From a virus: a stretch of DNA of 47,471 bases. Shown here one piece after another: positions 437 through 47,471 of this stretch. Location: positions 1-47,471 of IMG/VR virus record IMGVR_UViG_3300033146_003239. One strand, given 5' to 3'. The notes under the pieces are model-generated. The model searched no databases. It was given only the letters and a program-made list of their open reading frames with translations, and was not told where the DNA came from. A program made the position numbers and the translations under genes. The stretch's first letter is position 1. Each line of letters begins with the position of its first letter.

Positions 437-919
437 ATGAAAACGCTAACATCTCACGGTATGTCTTTTGAAGTTAAACGTAAATCCAAGTGGACAGTTG
501 AAGCTTGGGCAAACGGAGAAAAATGTGCCTCTGCTCCATCCATTCCTAAACTCCAAAAGAAGCTTGATGAACAACTTAAGCCTAAAGTTGTAGATGAAGA
601 AGCTGCCAAAGCTGTACTTGACGAAAAGTTTGGTGCAGAAGAAACCCCCACTGAAGAAACGCCTCCACCTAAGAAGACAGCTAAACCAAAGAAAGCTAAA
701 CGCAAAACCATCAAAAGTATTGTTCTTGATGCTATTACTGAAGGCAAAGAAGATGAAGAAATCATTGAATTGGTAAAAGCTGAGTTTCCAGATTCCAAAG
801 TTAACAAAGCTCATTGCAGCTGGTATCGTTCAACATTGACTCGTGATGGAGTTTTGGATGATATTTACGCTCCTAAACAATCTAAACGTTACAAAAAAGC
901 TGTTAAAGTAATACAATAA
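437..919 (+). CDS. Hypothetical basic protein, paralogue of next gene
   Basis: 160 residues. The N-terminal 50 residues look like a small folded domain. A Pro/Lys-rich linker follows at about 70-97 (PPPKKTAKPKKAKRK). The C-terminal domain, about 98-145, has an alternating helix pattern ending in FPDSKVNKAHCSWYRSTL. That C-terminal domain matches the N-terminus of the downstream protein (IPDSKADASHIKYYVRERV), so the two are paralogues in tandem. A DNA- or RNA-binding helical domain is a fair guess. The start has AGGA eight bases upstream in a recurrent leader (TAGGAACATTAATATG). Confidence 0.85.
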   Translation: MKTLTSHGMSFEVKRKSKWTVEAWANGEKCASAPSIPKLQKKLDEQLKPKVVDEEAAKAVLDEKFGAEETPTEETPPPKKTAKPKKAKRKTIKSIVLDAITEGKEDEEIIELVKAEFPDSKVNKAHCSWYRSTLTRDGVLDDIYAPKQSKRYKKAVKVIQ

Positions 920-955: not shown

Positions 956-1288
956 ATGTCAAAGAAAGTAACCGCTAAAAGCGTAATCGAAAATGGTCTT
1001 GATAAAGGCTGGACAGCTGAACGCATCTTAAAGGATGTTGCTAAGAAGATACCAGACTCAAAAGCTGATGCTTCTCATATCAAGTACTACGTTCGTGAAC
1101 GCGTGCGTAAACAAGCAATGTCCGCTGCTGATGCTGAAAAGTATGGTGTGAAAGCTGCACCTGCTAAGAAGAAAGACACGCCAGCTAAGAAATCTTCTGC
1201 TAAGAAGAAAGACACGCCAGCTAAGAAATCTTCTGCTAAGAAGAAAGATTCTTCAAAAAAGCCCCCCGCGCGTCGTTCAAAAAAATAA
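956..1288 (+). CDS. Histone H1-like basic protein
   Basis: 110 residues. Residues 1-60 form a helical domain related to the C-terminus of the upstream protein. Residues 65-110 are an Ala/Lys/Ser/Pro tail with tandem units (AKKKDTPAKKSS), like histone H1 or bacterial Hc1/AlgP tails, so nonspecific DNA binding is likely. The zero frame stops at TAA 1286-1288, directly after the heptamer A AAA AAA. A second slippery heptamer, A AAA AAG (the E. coli dnaX type), lies at 1255-1261. Start context is ACTGGGAGAACCAACATG, shared with the gene at 40768. Confidence 0.88.
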   Translation: MSKKVTAKSVIENGLDKGWTAERILKDVAKKIPDSKADASHIKYYVRERVRKQAMSAADAEKYGVKAAPAKKKDTPAKKSSAKKKDTPAKKSSAKKKDSSKKPPARRSKK

Positions 1289-1476
1289 AAGGTACTCGTA
1301 AAACTGTCTGTGGGGTAGAGGTAATCTACTCCGCAGATAACAAAAGCGAACTACTAACTGTAGTACAAGTTCAGCTCATAGAGACCGGAGAAAAAGCTAC
1401 CACAACCATTAGTCCAGATGGAAGTGTTAGAAGAACGGTGCGCAAACTAACGAAGCAACTAGCTCATTTACCCTAG
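956..1476 (+). CDS. Predicted -1 frameshift product of the H1-like gene
   Basis: The -1 frame is open from 1240 to the TAG at 1474-1476 and has no usable start codon of its own (no ATG, GTG or TTG in frame). Slippage at A AAA AAA (1279-1285) would add 63 residues and give a 173-residue protein; slippage at A AAA AAG (1255-1261) also enters this frame. The added part looks like ordinary protein (CGVEVIYSADNKSELL, then ISPDGSVRRTVRKL). Its stop falls in the leader of the next gene with no wasted sequence. A sequencing error in the A7 run is the main alternative. Confidence 0.6.
1163..1248 (+). repeat. Tandem 36-bp repeat in H1-like tail
   Basis: Two perfect 36-bp copies (1163-1198 and 1199-1234) are followed by 14 bp of a third. 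They encode the AKKKDTPAKKSS repeats. The identity at DNA level means recent duplication, so tail length may vary between relatives. Confidence 0.95.
1305..1339 (+). other. RNA hairpin downstream of slippery sites
   Basis: TCTGTGGGGTAGA (1307-1319) pairs with TCTACTCCGCAGA (1325-1337) over 13 consecutive pairs, two of them G-U, around a 5-base loop. Two more pairs (1305/1339 and 1306/1338 G-U) extend it to 15. It begins 19 nt after the second slippery heptamer, farther than the usual 5-9 nt. No U-run follows, so it is not an intrinsic terminator. Confidence 0.8.
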
Positions 1477-1809: not shown

Positions 1810-2067
1810 ATGGCTCGCGTAGTTAAAGGGACCAAGGTCGAACTTGGCTCCTTGAATAGTGGTCACTGTTGTGATATTAGCTGGGACGGTAAAACATCTA
1901 CATACATCGTCTGCAAAACAACAAATGGTGACTCAGTAAACCCTTCATCCAAAGTCACAGTGTGTAATCTTGAAACTGGCAGAATAGTAACTAAGCCTGC
2001 TGATTTAAAGGTTATCCAGATGGCTGTAACCATTAATGCAAAGCCTATGGAGAAACGTAATGGCTAA
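1810..2067 (+). CDS. Hypothetical small protein
   Basis: 85 residues, predicted mostly beta (for example DISWDGKTSTYIVCKTT), with four Cys but no clear metal motif. GGAG lies upstream of the start (TTTGGAGTAATTATG). It overlaps the following methyltransferase start by 8 bp. Function unknown. Confidence 0.75.
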   Translation: MARVVKGTKVELGSLNSGHCCDISWDGKTSTYIVCKTTNGDSVNPSSKVTVCNLETGRIVTKPADLKVIQMAVTINAKPMEKRNG

Positions 2068-2857
2068 TGATAGAACTAAAGATGGCAAAGACGTTAACCG
2101 CGAATTTGACCAGACTCAATTAAAGCTTGCTCAGTTCAAGCATCAACCCCATAAAGATTATCTTGGTCATATTCTTCGTTGGGGTTTTGCCAGTAAATTC
2201 GTAGACAAAAAGAAGAAAGTTCTTGACGTCGGTTGTGGCCAAGAGCAACCATTTGCTCGTAGTTTAGGTGGAGCTAATCCTAACTCAGTCCCAGAACTTT
2301 ATGTTGGCTGCGACTTAAATAAAATTAAAACTCCAATCAAGCGTAAGAATTTCCATACAATGGATGAATTCAACTTTACTAAAAGTTATCGTAAGTTGAA
2401 ACGTCAATTCGGTTTGTTCGATGTGATTGTTAACTTTGAAGTATTTGAGCACATGCAAATGGAACATGGTCGTAAACTTCTTAAAGGTATGCGTTCATTG
2501 TTAGCAGAAGATGGTAAGCTTATATTCAGCATGCCAGTCTATTCTGATCGTTATAAAATGGCTCGTAACCATATCAATGAACTTCGTAAAGAAGAAATTG
2601 AAGCTGAGTTACACCGAGCAGGTTTTAAAATCATTGCTCAGTATGGCACATTCGGTAATTGGCATGACATTAAAAAGTGTATGTCTAAGAAAGAAATTGA
2701 AACCTATAAAACCTGTGGTGAATTCTACAGCAATGACTTATTAGGTTGCTTCTTATCTCCCAAATATCCTGAAGCTGCTCGCAATATCACTCATATCTGT
2801 GTACGTGATGATAGTGATTTGCCTGAGTGTGAATTTGTAGATTCAATCATTCAATAG
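2060..2857 (+). CDS. Class I SAM-dependent methyltransferase
   Basis: 265 residues. SAM-binding motif I is KVLDVGCGQEQP, an acidic strand end follows (YVGCDLN), then FDVIVNFEVFEHM (motif IV region) and a GKLIFSMPVY strand, all in the order of the Rossmann-fold methyltransferases. There is no DPPY/NPPY motif of the N6-adenine or N4-cytosine DNA enzymes and no PC motif of C5-cytosine enzymes, so the substrate cannot be read from sequence. I chose ATG 2060 (GGAG seven bases upstream) over 2036. It lies just upstream of nucleotide-metabolism genes, so a nucleotide or DNA substrate is possible but unproven. Confidence 0.85.
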   Translation: MANDRTKDGKDVNREFDQTQLKLAQFKHQPHKDYLGHILRWGFASKFVDKKKKVLDVGCGQEQPFARSLGGANPNSVPELYVGCDLNKIKTPIKRKNFHTMDEFNFTKSYRKLKRQFGLFDVIVNFEVFEHMQMEHGRKLLKGMRSLLAEDGKLIFSMPVYSDRYKMARNHINELRKEEIEAELHRAGFKIIAQYGTFGNWHDIKKCMSKKEIETYKTCGEFYSNDLLGCFLSPKYPEAARNITHICVRDDSDLPECEFVDSIIQ

Positions 2858-2866
2858 AGGTGAACC

Positions 2867-3856
2867 ATGTTTGAACAATCAGTAAAACAAATGCATGATA
2901 AATTTGGCTTTGATAATCCACCATTTCCAAAAGAACTATCTGAAGGTGAATATAAATTTCGCTGTATGGCTTTAGCTGAAGAGCTATTTGAATATATTGA
3001 ATCTATCGTTGGTAAAGACGAAGAGTTTCAAGATATTCATGATGGGCTAAAGCAATGCATCACTCACATGAAAATACTTGATGACGTTGATGACCCAATT
3101 ATTTTAGAAAAACAGTTTGATGCTTTATTAGACTTAGTAGTATTCGCTTGTGGTGCTATGGTATGTCACGGGTTTCCTATTGAAGAAGGTTTTAAACGTG
3201 TTATGTCTGCTAATATGGCAAAAGAACTTGGCCATACAGGTAAGCGTGGTAACTGGAAAAAAGACCTTGTTAAACCTGAAGACTGGAAAGCTCCAGATTT
3301 GCTTGACCTAGTTACATCTTCAAAGCCAAAAGGTGTTATTATTCTTGATGGTCCAGATGGAGTAGGTAAAACTACTATTGCTGAATTATTAAAAGAAAAA
3401 TATGATGCTGAATACATTCATCTAACATGGAGTCCAGAAATTGAAGAACGTATGGACTGCTATATGTGGGATGCTTTGTATGAAGCCGTTAACAAAAGTA
3501 AAGATGGTTTGTGTGTTATTGACCGTCACTACTTAAGCGAAATGATTTATGCTGAAGTTTATCGTGAAGGCACTAAGTATAAAGGTATGCATGAGTCAGT
3601 AATCCGCAAGCTTAATGAAATTGGTGCTATGCTTGTTCTCTGTTTACCGGAAGATAAAGAGCGTTATTTAAAGCATTTTGACAGTCTTAAAGAAGACCGT
3701 GAAGAAATGTATACTACTATGGATGAAATTTATAAAGCTTACGAGTTTGAAACAATCCATGGTACTTACTTTCCTAAAAAATATCTTCGTTATGATTTAT
3801 TTCAATACGAAGGTAGACCTGAAGTTTTTGTTAACCAAATATTGGAGAAGATGTAA
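2867..3856 (+). CDS. MazG-like pyrophosphohydrolase fused to dTMP-kinase-like domain
   Basis: 329 residues, two domains. Residues 25-120 fit the all-alpha MazG-type NTP pyrophosphohydrolases: EELFE at 38-42 (EExxE) and D85/D89 in the partner helix for Mg2+. Residues 155-329 are a P-loop nucleoside monophosphate kinase of thymidylate-kinase type: GPDGVGKTT at 162-170 and a DRHYLSEMIY stretch like the DR(Y/W) motif. One protein could cleave an NTP to NMP and phosphorylate another NMP. The stop overlaps the next ATG by one base (TAATG), implying coupled translation with the thymidylate-synthase-like gene. Confidence 0.88.
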   Translation: MFEQSVKQMHDKFGFDNPPFPKELSEGEYKFRCMALAEELFEYIESIVGKDEEFQDIHDGLKQCITHMKILDDVDDPIILEKQFDALLDLVVFACGAMVCHGFPIEEGFKRVMSANMAKELGHTGKRGNWKKDLVKPEDWKAPDLLDLVTSSKPKGVIILDGPDGVGKTTIAELLKEKYDAEYIHLTWSPEIEERMDCYMWDALYEAVNKSKDGLCVIDRHYLSEMIYAEVYREGTKYKGMHESVIRKLNEIGAMLVLCLPEDKERYLKHFDSLKEDREEMYTTMDEIYKAYEFETIHGTYFPKKYLRYDLFQYEGRPEVFVNQILEKM

Positions 3857-16480: not shown

Positions 16481-17113
16481 TTTGTGGTTTCCTCAATTTC
16501 GCTCTAAGGGCTAAAACCTCCAACATATCCAACAAATCAATGTAACTATAAGTCCCATCTTCAAGCTGATGATATTGACACAGTGGCGGGTCTGCCATAA
16601 CTGGTGCCCATAACTCGGCTTTCCAAGGTTTGTTTTTGTCAAATATGTTGGGAGCAATATCACTTACTTCGAATCCGCTGTCTGAGTCGGTTGCGAAGTA
16701 GTCTGGTCGAGTTTCAGCCCTTTCAAAAAACCCGAAAAATTACACTTAATAACCCACAAGAAAACTTTATAAGCTTCAAGTAAATCATCCCCAGCATATA
16801 GCGATTCAAATGATGTAGAATCCATACGGCTCATCTTATCATCTGCGCCTTTGTAGTTAACTGTACAGACAATCTTTTTAACGAAAGCAAAAACTTCGTC
16901 ATGACCATTCTCTTTAACTACTTTAGAAATAACCTTAAAAAGAATAGCAGCTTGCTCATCTTCTTTTTTACCGATTACTCCCATTAATTCTTTAATGCCT
17001 TCACCAAACATTCCAGCAATTTGGAACTTAATTGGACCAGCCATTGATGGCGGCATTTGTGTAACCGAATAATCTCGGCCATTAATTGTTTCTTTAAATG
17101 TCTCGCAAGCCAT
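16464..17113 (-). CDS. Tail assembly chaperone -1 frameshift product (GT-like)
   Basis: In the zero frame codons TCG GGT TTT TTG place the heptamer G GGT TTT at 16733-16727 on the minus strand, an exact X XXY YYZ site. Slipping back one base opens a frame from 16727 to the TAG at 16466-16464, adding 87 residues to the first 129 (216 in total). The extension reads through 16663-16481, which otherwise has no gene, and ends 14 bases inside the tape measure gene. This is the same logic as lambda gpG/gpGT. Confidence 0.85.
16664..17113 (-). CDS. Tail assembly chaperone (G-like)
   Basis: 149 residues, zero-frame product. Located between tail tube and tape measure. An N-terminal INGRDYSVTQMPP start and helical remainder are typical of myovirus tail chaperones. 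The gene holds a slippery heptamer near its end, see the next entry. Start context is ACTGGAGAAACAAAATG. Confidence 0.85.
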   Translation of the reverse strand: MACETFKETINGRDYSVTQMPPSMAGPIKFQIAGMFGEGIKELMGVIGKKEDEQAAILFKVISKVVKENGHDEVFAFVKKIVCTVNYKGADDKMSRMDSTSFESLYAGDDLLEAYKVFLWVIKCNFSGFLKGLKLDQTTSQPTQTADSK

Positions 17114-46324: not shown

Positions 46325-47471
46325 TTATCAGCAGACTTGTGTTGCATTAGGTATAACGCATCCACACTATGCTTTCTTTCTAGACCCAGGTCTAGGCAAA
46401 ACTACAATCATACTTCAGATAGCAAAAATCCTTTTGTTAGCCGGAGACGTCAAATCAATATTAGTTGTTGCACCTCTTAGACCGTGTTATATGGTATGGC
46501 CTAAAGAGGTTCGTAAGTGGTCTAACTTTAATGATTTATCCGTAGGAGTTTTACATGGTGGTACGAAAGATAAAGTCTATCAAGAACAACATGACATCTA
46601 TGTTATTAATCCTGAAGGTCTACCTTGGCTTATGTCCAAACTCAAAGGAAAAAGAAAAAAGAGTTGGCCATTTGATATGCTTGTTGTGGACGAATCGACG
46701 AAATTCAAAAACATGTCTAGCAAGCGATTCAAAAACCTTTTCAAGCTTCTTCCTGGGTTCACTAGAAGGTATATACTCACTGGAACACCCATACCAAATG
46801 GACTACTGGGTATTCAGGGTCAAATCGGAATTCTTGATGCAGGAAGTTCGCTTGGACGTAAGCAGAAGGGTTTCAGGGAAAAGTACTTTAAACAGATTGG
46901 CAGACCAGAATGGAAGAAATTCGTCCCTATTGATGAAGTTCATGAGGACCAGATTTATGCTGAAATTTCGCACATGTGTATACGCATTGCTGCTGATGAC
47001 TACCTCAAACTTCCAGAGCGAGTTGACAACGACATAATAATAAAACTACCTCCTAAAGCTCAGAAAGCTTATAAACAAATGGAGGAAGAACTTGCTGCAG
47101 AAATTTTAGATAAGCAGATAATAGCTTTACAATCTTCATCAGCACGAATCAAATGTCATCAAATAGCTAATGGTTGCGTGTACGAAGACCAAGACCCGTT
47201 AGAGAAGCCACTACCATCTCATAAGAGGCCAGTCATCCATGTGCACGATGCTAAGTTAGATGCACTAGAAGACCTACACGAAGAGCTAGACTACAAACCC
47301 ATATTAATTGGTTACTGGTTTACTCATGACCTTATTCAACTTAAAAAGAGGTTTGGTAAACGTTTAGTCTCTATGGGTAAAGGTACTAGTATTGAAGAGT
47401 GTGTTGAGATAGAGAAACGATGGAATGCAGGTAAGATAGAGATGCTTGCAGCTTTCCCTGGAACTGCAGCC
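46263..47471 (+). CDS. SNF2-type DEAD-like helicase, N-terminal part (no stop before the end)
   Basis: 403 residues to the window end; continues at base 1 (487 in total). RWKPHNYQQ (Q-like motif), Walker A DPGLGKTT at 41-48, motif II VVDESTKFKN at 141-150 (DES instead of DEAH), LTGTPIPNG (motif III). It begins inside the VRR-NUC gene (62-bp overlap), so the pair is translated together. Open frame is continuous up to the last base. Confidence 0.9.
   Translation, partial: MSRRRLRKRKGFSLKRWKPHNYQQTCVALGITHPHYAFFLDPGLGKTTIILQIAKILLLAGDVKSILVVAPLRPCYMVWPKEVRKWSNFNDLSVGVLHGGTKDKVYQEQHDIYVINPEGLPWLMSKLKGKRKKSWPFDMLVVDESTKFKNMSSKRFKNLFKLLPGFTRRYILTGTPIPNGLLGIQGQIGILDAGSSLGRKQKGFREKYFKQIGRPEWKKFVPIDEVHEDQIYAEISHMCIRIAADDYLKLPERVDNDIIIKLPPKAQKAYKQMEEELAAEILDKQIIALQSSSARIKCHQIANGCVYEDQDPLEKPLPSHKRPVIHVHDAKLDALEDLHEELDYKPILIGYWFTHDLIQLKKRFGKRLVSMGKGTSIEECVEIEKRWNAGKIEMLAAFPGTAA
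47358..47471. repeat. Terminal direct repeat (right copy)
   Basis: Identical to 1-114, see that entry. It should be removed from one end when the molecule is drawn as a circle. Confidence 0.93.

Follow-up and report, generated by a model that had tools for sequence, protein, structure and literature searches.

Evidence for programmed -1 ribosomal frameshifting in a conserved gene of the DNA-metabolism region of an uncultivated phage

The DNA analysed here (the window) is a single virus record of 47,471 bases. Because an identical 114-base direct repeat occupies its two ends (1-114 and 47358-47471), the record is probably a complete circular map, whether circular or circularly permuted, and a helicase ORF in fact spans the ends, running from the last into the first bases. 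The gene of interest, 956-1288, lies in the DNA-metabolism side of this map, 3' of the helicase and of gene 437-919, and 5' of a methyltransferase gene (Table 1). Further downstream, MazG-like pyrophosphohydrolase and thymidylate-kinase-like parts are found in one 329-aa protein. The tail assembly chaperone and tape measure genes of the window match phage families.

Table 1. Coordinates of the features discussed, in window numbering.
Feature	Position	Strand	Basis or context
Upstream gene with the same kind of helical domain	437-919	+	Adjoins the candidate frameshift gene in 6/6 viruses
Zero-frame gene, 110 aa (helical domain and lysine-rich tail)	956-1288	+	ORF; homologs in five viruses
N-terminal helical domain	956-1153	+	AlphaFold2 model, alignment, second copy upstream
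36-base tandem repeat, 2.4 copies, encoding the KKKDTPAKKSSA tail	1161-1248	+	Tandem Repeats Finder, 100% match
Open -1 frame	1240-1476	+	ORF reading; conserved as protein; beta4-alpha model
A AAA AAG in the zero frame, possible first slip site	1255-1261	+	
A AAA AAA abutting TAA, probable main slip site	1279-1285	+	Aligned with A AAA AAG of L003 and L037
15-bp hairpin (1305-1319 with 1325-1339, loop 1320-1324), candidate stimulator	1305-1339	+	Folding energy
Methyltransferase gene	2036-2857		Downstream of the candidate frameshift gene
MazG-like and thymidylate-kinase-like protein	2867-3856		Downstream of the methyltransferase
Tail assembly chaperone, phrog_1613	16664-17113	-	Adjoins the tape measure gene

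Gene 956-1288 stops at TAA 1286-1288, its end reading TCA AAA AAA TAA. AlphaFold2 modelled its N-terminal domain as four helices (pLDDT 83.5), and a PDB fold search with this model returned no match below E 3. A preliminary description of this DNA had called the product histone H1-like, a likeness that turned out to be one of composition only, residing in the lysine-rich tail: no Pfam family scored above cut-off, and no histone model was listed at E values up to 1. What the protein shares with the bacterial histone H1-like lysine-rich proteins is a repeated lysine/alanine-rich tail, whereas its helical domain without Pfam match and its putatively frameshifted beta4-alpha extension are unlike them.

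Both X XXY YYZ heptamers of the preliminary description do lie in the zero frame where it had placed them, and the -1 frame is open, as it had also stated, to a stop at 1474-1476 with no start codon that could account for it. The first ATG, GTG or TTG in this frame is the GTG at 1438, which cannot start the extension because it comes far too late. A slip at either heptamer would give a 173-aa product, in which the fused part would be the described 63 residues (1285-1473) for a slip on the A7 run, or 71 residues (1261-1473) for one on the upstream A6G. The extension was modelled as beta-beta-beta-beta-alpha (pLDDT 76.4). Fold searches with this model yielded nothing convincing, the best Foldseek hits being at E 0.49 in the PDB and E 0.14 in BFVD; in VIA-align the best Z was 6.4, and many dsRNA-binding domains appeared at Z ~4, the range of common arrangements. 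The extension may be a PC4/Whirly-like beta4-alpha single-strand DNA-binding domain, although the fold searches listed no such domain. A possible kinship between the extension and the N-terminal domain of 437-919 was also considered.

Direct searches of annotated phages and viral contigs with the window gene or its extension found no relatives (best phage match to the extension, E ~8). Four relatives, L003, L033, L035 and L037, were reached instead via the neighbouring kinase and methyltransferase genes, and a fifth, L042, by a profile of the helical domain, which is 42-48% identical to that of the window in the former and 52% in the latter. All five, which are distantly related viruses, carry the helical-domain gene followed by a homologous -1 extension, and in none of them is there an ATG, GTG or TTG able to start the whole extension. 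Their zero/-1 overlaps span 31-166 nt, with differing A-runs and spacers, and the fused proteins would be 173-202 aa long across the family. Neither module was matched in the DNA examined of the helicase-based loci L004-L030, nor in L036, a 42 kb record in which the methyltransferase is present; the L034 sequence starts at the methyltransferase, the distant L053-L055 gave no match, and a final scan with the extension profile recovered known members only. The phage contig L037 (CAJYBF010000017.1) has been placed in a MAG labelled 'uncultured Mollicutes', an assignment that may be wrong, as the contig's genes resemble those of these uncultivated phages. The helical domain encoded by 437-919 is a divergent second copy; it comes after a lysine-rich linker and an N-terminal part that is unrelated, and this N-terminal part differs between L003/L037/L035 and L033/L042.

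Lack of conservation of the extension as protein among relatives had been named beforehand as evidence against frameshifting; the comparison was made, and the extension proved to be conserved in the same -1 relation. Between the window and L003 the extensions score 63 by BLOSUM, whereas 2000 shuffles averaged 23 (sd 4.4) and never exceeded 47 (z 9), and when all nine frame pairings of these two sequences were compared only the -1/-1 pairing rose above background (61 vs <=27). Leave-one-out profiles recovered 6/6 extensions, with 0/2000 shuffles reaching any real score. The selection check that had been suggested gave a divided answer: the closest pair, L003-L037 (59% aa identity), has a pN/pS of 0.31 in the -1 frame, compared with 0.68 and 0.85 in the two others, while L033-L035 (pN/pS 1.11) gave no signal. 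In pairs that have diverged further, synonymous sites are close to being saturated.

An in-frame A AAA AAG is found inside the overlap in 6/6 viruses, that is, the window and its five relatives, and in L003, L042, L033 and L035 it is the sole X XXY YYZ heptamer of the gene. The A7 heptamer of the window aligns with the A AAA AAG of L003 (859-865) and of L037 (4500-4506), the latter also directly preceding the stop. In lysine-rich genes AAA AAG is often present by chance, and synonymous shuffles place a heptamer in the overlap with a frequency of 0.18-0.65 per gene; the product over all six overlaps, the sequences being assumed independent, is ~7e-4. The corresponding product for a -1 frame that stays open over the overlaps by chance, under the same assumption, is ~4e-8. 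The heptamer A_AAA_AAG has been treated in E. coli (PMC5009743), where A AAA AAA is reported to be less shifty than A AAA AAG, although the host of this phage may have a different tRNA-Lys set. In the window, the upstream A AAA AAG could act as a second slip site.

The hairpin downstream of the A7 run, and its 19-nt spacing from it, hold as originally described, with 15 bp of stem; its folding energy is -23.8 kcal/mol (z -6.0), and 0/200 shuffles were as stable. L003 and L037 also have hairpins that cover these codons; the distance from the heptamer is 19 nt in the window, 32 nt in L003 and 31 nt in L037. A search for strict base-pair homology between the window hairpin and those of L003 and L037 was negative: they have the 3' arm (TACTCC) in common, but the register in which the 5' arm pairs differs. 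In L033 a 6-bp hairpin lies 6 nt 3' of the heptamer, and Shine-Dalgarno (SD)-like elements precede the heptamer in L042 (AAAGGAGGT, ~14 nt upstream) and L035 (AGAAGGAG, ~10 nt upstream), with energies that codon shuffles match in 10% and 42% of cases, respectively. No single stimulator is thus common to the family. A stimulatory role for the window hairpin is plausible, but we do not call it a stimulator with confidence because it lies too far from the slip site.

Taken with these observations, the reading put forward in the preliminary description, a programmed -1 frameshift, has gained support, as five relatives share the -1 layout together with an A AAA AAG in the overlap and the extension is conserved. 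Other explanations could nonetheless be envisioned. Since the junction is a homopolymer and the virus record behind the window is metagenomic, the A7 run could really be A6 or A8, and one continuous gene would then have been split by a sequencing or assembly error. We consider this extremely unlikely, and indeed rule out a homopolymer error in A7, given that five other records show the same -1 relation with differing A-runs, spacers and overlaps, and that in L042, L033 and L035 the overlap is a whole run of codons, for which a single indel at one A-run close to the stop would not account. Slippage during transcription of the A-run, which would alter the frame of the mRNA itself, is in our opinion very unlikely. 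The window does have AAAAAAA at 1279-1285, a sequence that is underrepresented in every frame of E. coli genes, perhaps through transcriptional slippage (PMC4066793); however, the element common to the family is A6G in the phase of a zero-frame tandem slip, which is a ribosomal signature, and phase is irrelevant to a polymerase. A run of six A residues is also short for polymerase slippage.

The extension might alternatively be made as a separate protein, either from a rare start (ATA, ATC, ATT, or an internal GTG or TTG) or by termination-reinitiation at TAA 1286, and a GAGGT does precede ATC 1324. Pseudomonas phages KPP23 and RSP appear to carry the two modules in just this manner: downstream of a gene whose product is weakly homologous to the helical domain (E 4e-5) there is, in the -1 frame, an ORF of 67 aa whose ATG overlaps the stop as ATGA, with no slippery heptamer. 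Against the extension profile this 67-aa ORF scores 12.8 bits, a value reached by 0/2000 shuffles (maximum 7.1), although it did not reach E 0.1 in a genome search with that profile. Module order and -1 relation in KPP23_014/KPP23_013 are those of the candidate frameshift gene, which differs from this pair of ORFs in lacking a normal ATG start and in having a slippery heptamer; the pair may tentatively be regarded as a split form of the same modules. For the window and its relatives, however, we deem a separate protein quite unlikely. In 6/6 viruses the domain has no ATG, GTG or TTG at its start or upstream of it; the GTG and TTG codons of L033, L035 and L042 are inside the domain and at differing aligned positions; an in-frame heptamer would serve no need; and the aligned -1 sequence of these three relatives begins well before the zero-frame stop. 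This pre-stop stretch is 40-50% identical over 20 columns in two of the pairs and 23% identical over 26 in the third, and would favour fusion over a separate start, even if only as moderate evidence because the same bases encode the lysine-rich tail.

Frameshifting of this type is well known in other systems. In E. coli dnaX (tau/gamma), as in the family studied here, an A AAA AAG tandem slip lies near a stop and the products share their N-terminal part, and some family members have candidate SD-like and hairpin stimulators that resemble those of dnaX, where the SD is a major feature (PMC5009743). The proteins are unrelated, however, and the frameshift of dnaX generates the short form, whereas that of 956-1288 would generate the long one; in addition, the window has A AAA AAA at the matching position and a far more distant hairpin. 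Lambda G/GT is likewise a phage gene in which a -1 slip yields a long minor form with a C-terminal extension that has no start of its own, but 956-1288 belongs to another gene family and another genome region. We rejected 956-1288 as a lambda-type tail assembly chaperone, as it has no chaperone PHROG match and the chaperone of this phage lies elsewhere. When ORFs of at least 60 aa on both strands of the genome were scanned for -1 extensions of 45 codons or more that have no ATG, GTG or TTG near their beginning and a slippery heptamer in the overlap, only two loci emerged, 956-1288 and that chaperone. The latter carries G GGT TTT / T TTT TTG, and its -1 extension, 67 codons with no start, reaches 16464 (-); 17113-16464 (-) is expected to be the second programmed frameshift of this phage, and a built-in positive control.

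Overall, gene 956-1288 very probably uses programmed -1 ribosomal frameshifting to yield two products. Most ribosomes would stop at TAA 1286-1288 and release the 110-aa protein, made of the helical domain and the lysine-rich tail, while some would slip back one base, most likely on A AAA AAA 1279-1285 and possibly also on A AAA AAG 1255-1261, and continue to 1476, giving a 173-aa protein with the beta4-alpha domain added. We infer from this arrangement that ribosomes slip here, as well as the ratio of the products, with the short form predominating. Both forms would be nucleic-acid-binding proteins of the DNA-metabolism region, and the molecules of the long form, a subset, would bear a second module for binding or for a partner. 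Whether this is a nucleoid-like phage protein made in two forms at a ratio set by the ribosome, the long one bearing an undescribed beta4-alpha domain, and whether relatives swap the fusion for an ATGA pair in a series from frameshifting to coupling, is a broader picture to which we give about even chances.

The mechanism is of a known kind, and the gene family is apparently undescribed; no account of it or of its frameshift was found in the open papers that our literature search covered. Well-documented programmed frameshifts of tailed phages mostly concern tail chaperones, coat or tail proteins (PMC5009743), and gene 956-1288 would add to them a conserved case in the DNA-metabolism region, brought out by the comparison of uncultivated viruses. 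Gene callers that require a start codon would report the 110-aa form only, so that the extension domain is easily missed. The probable split form in KPP23 and RSP, in turn, offers phages of a known host that would allow each module to be studied separately.
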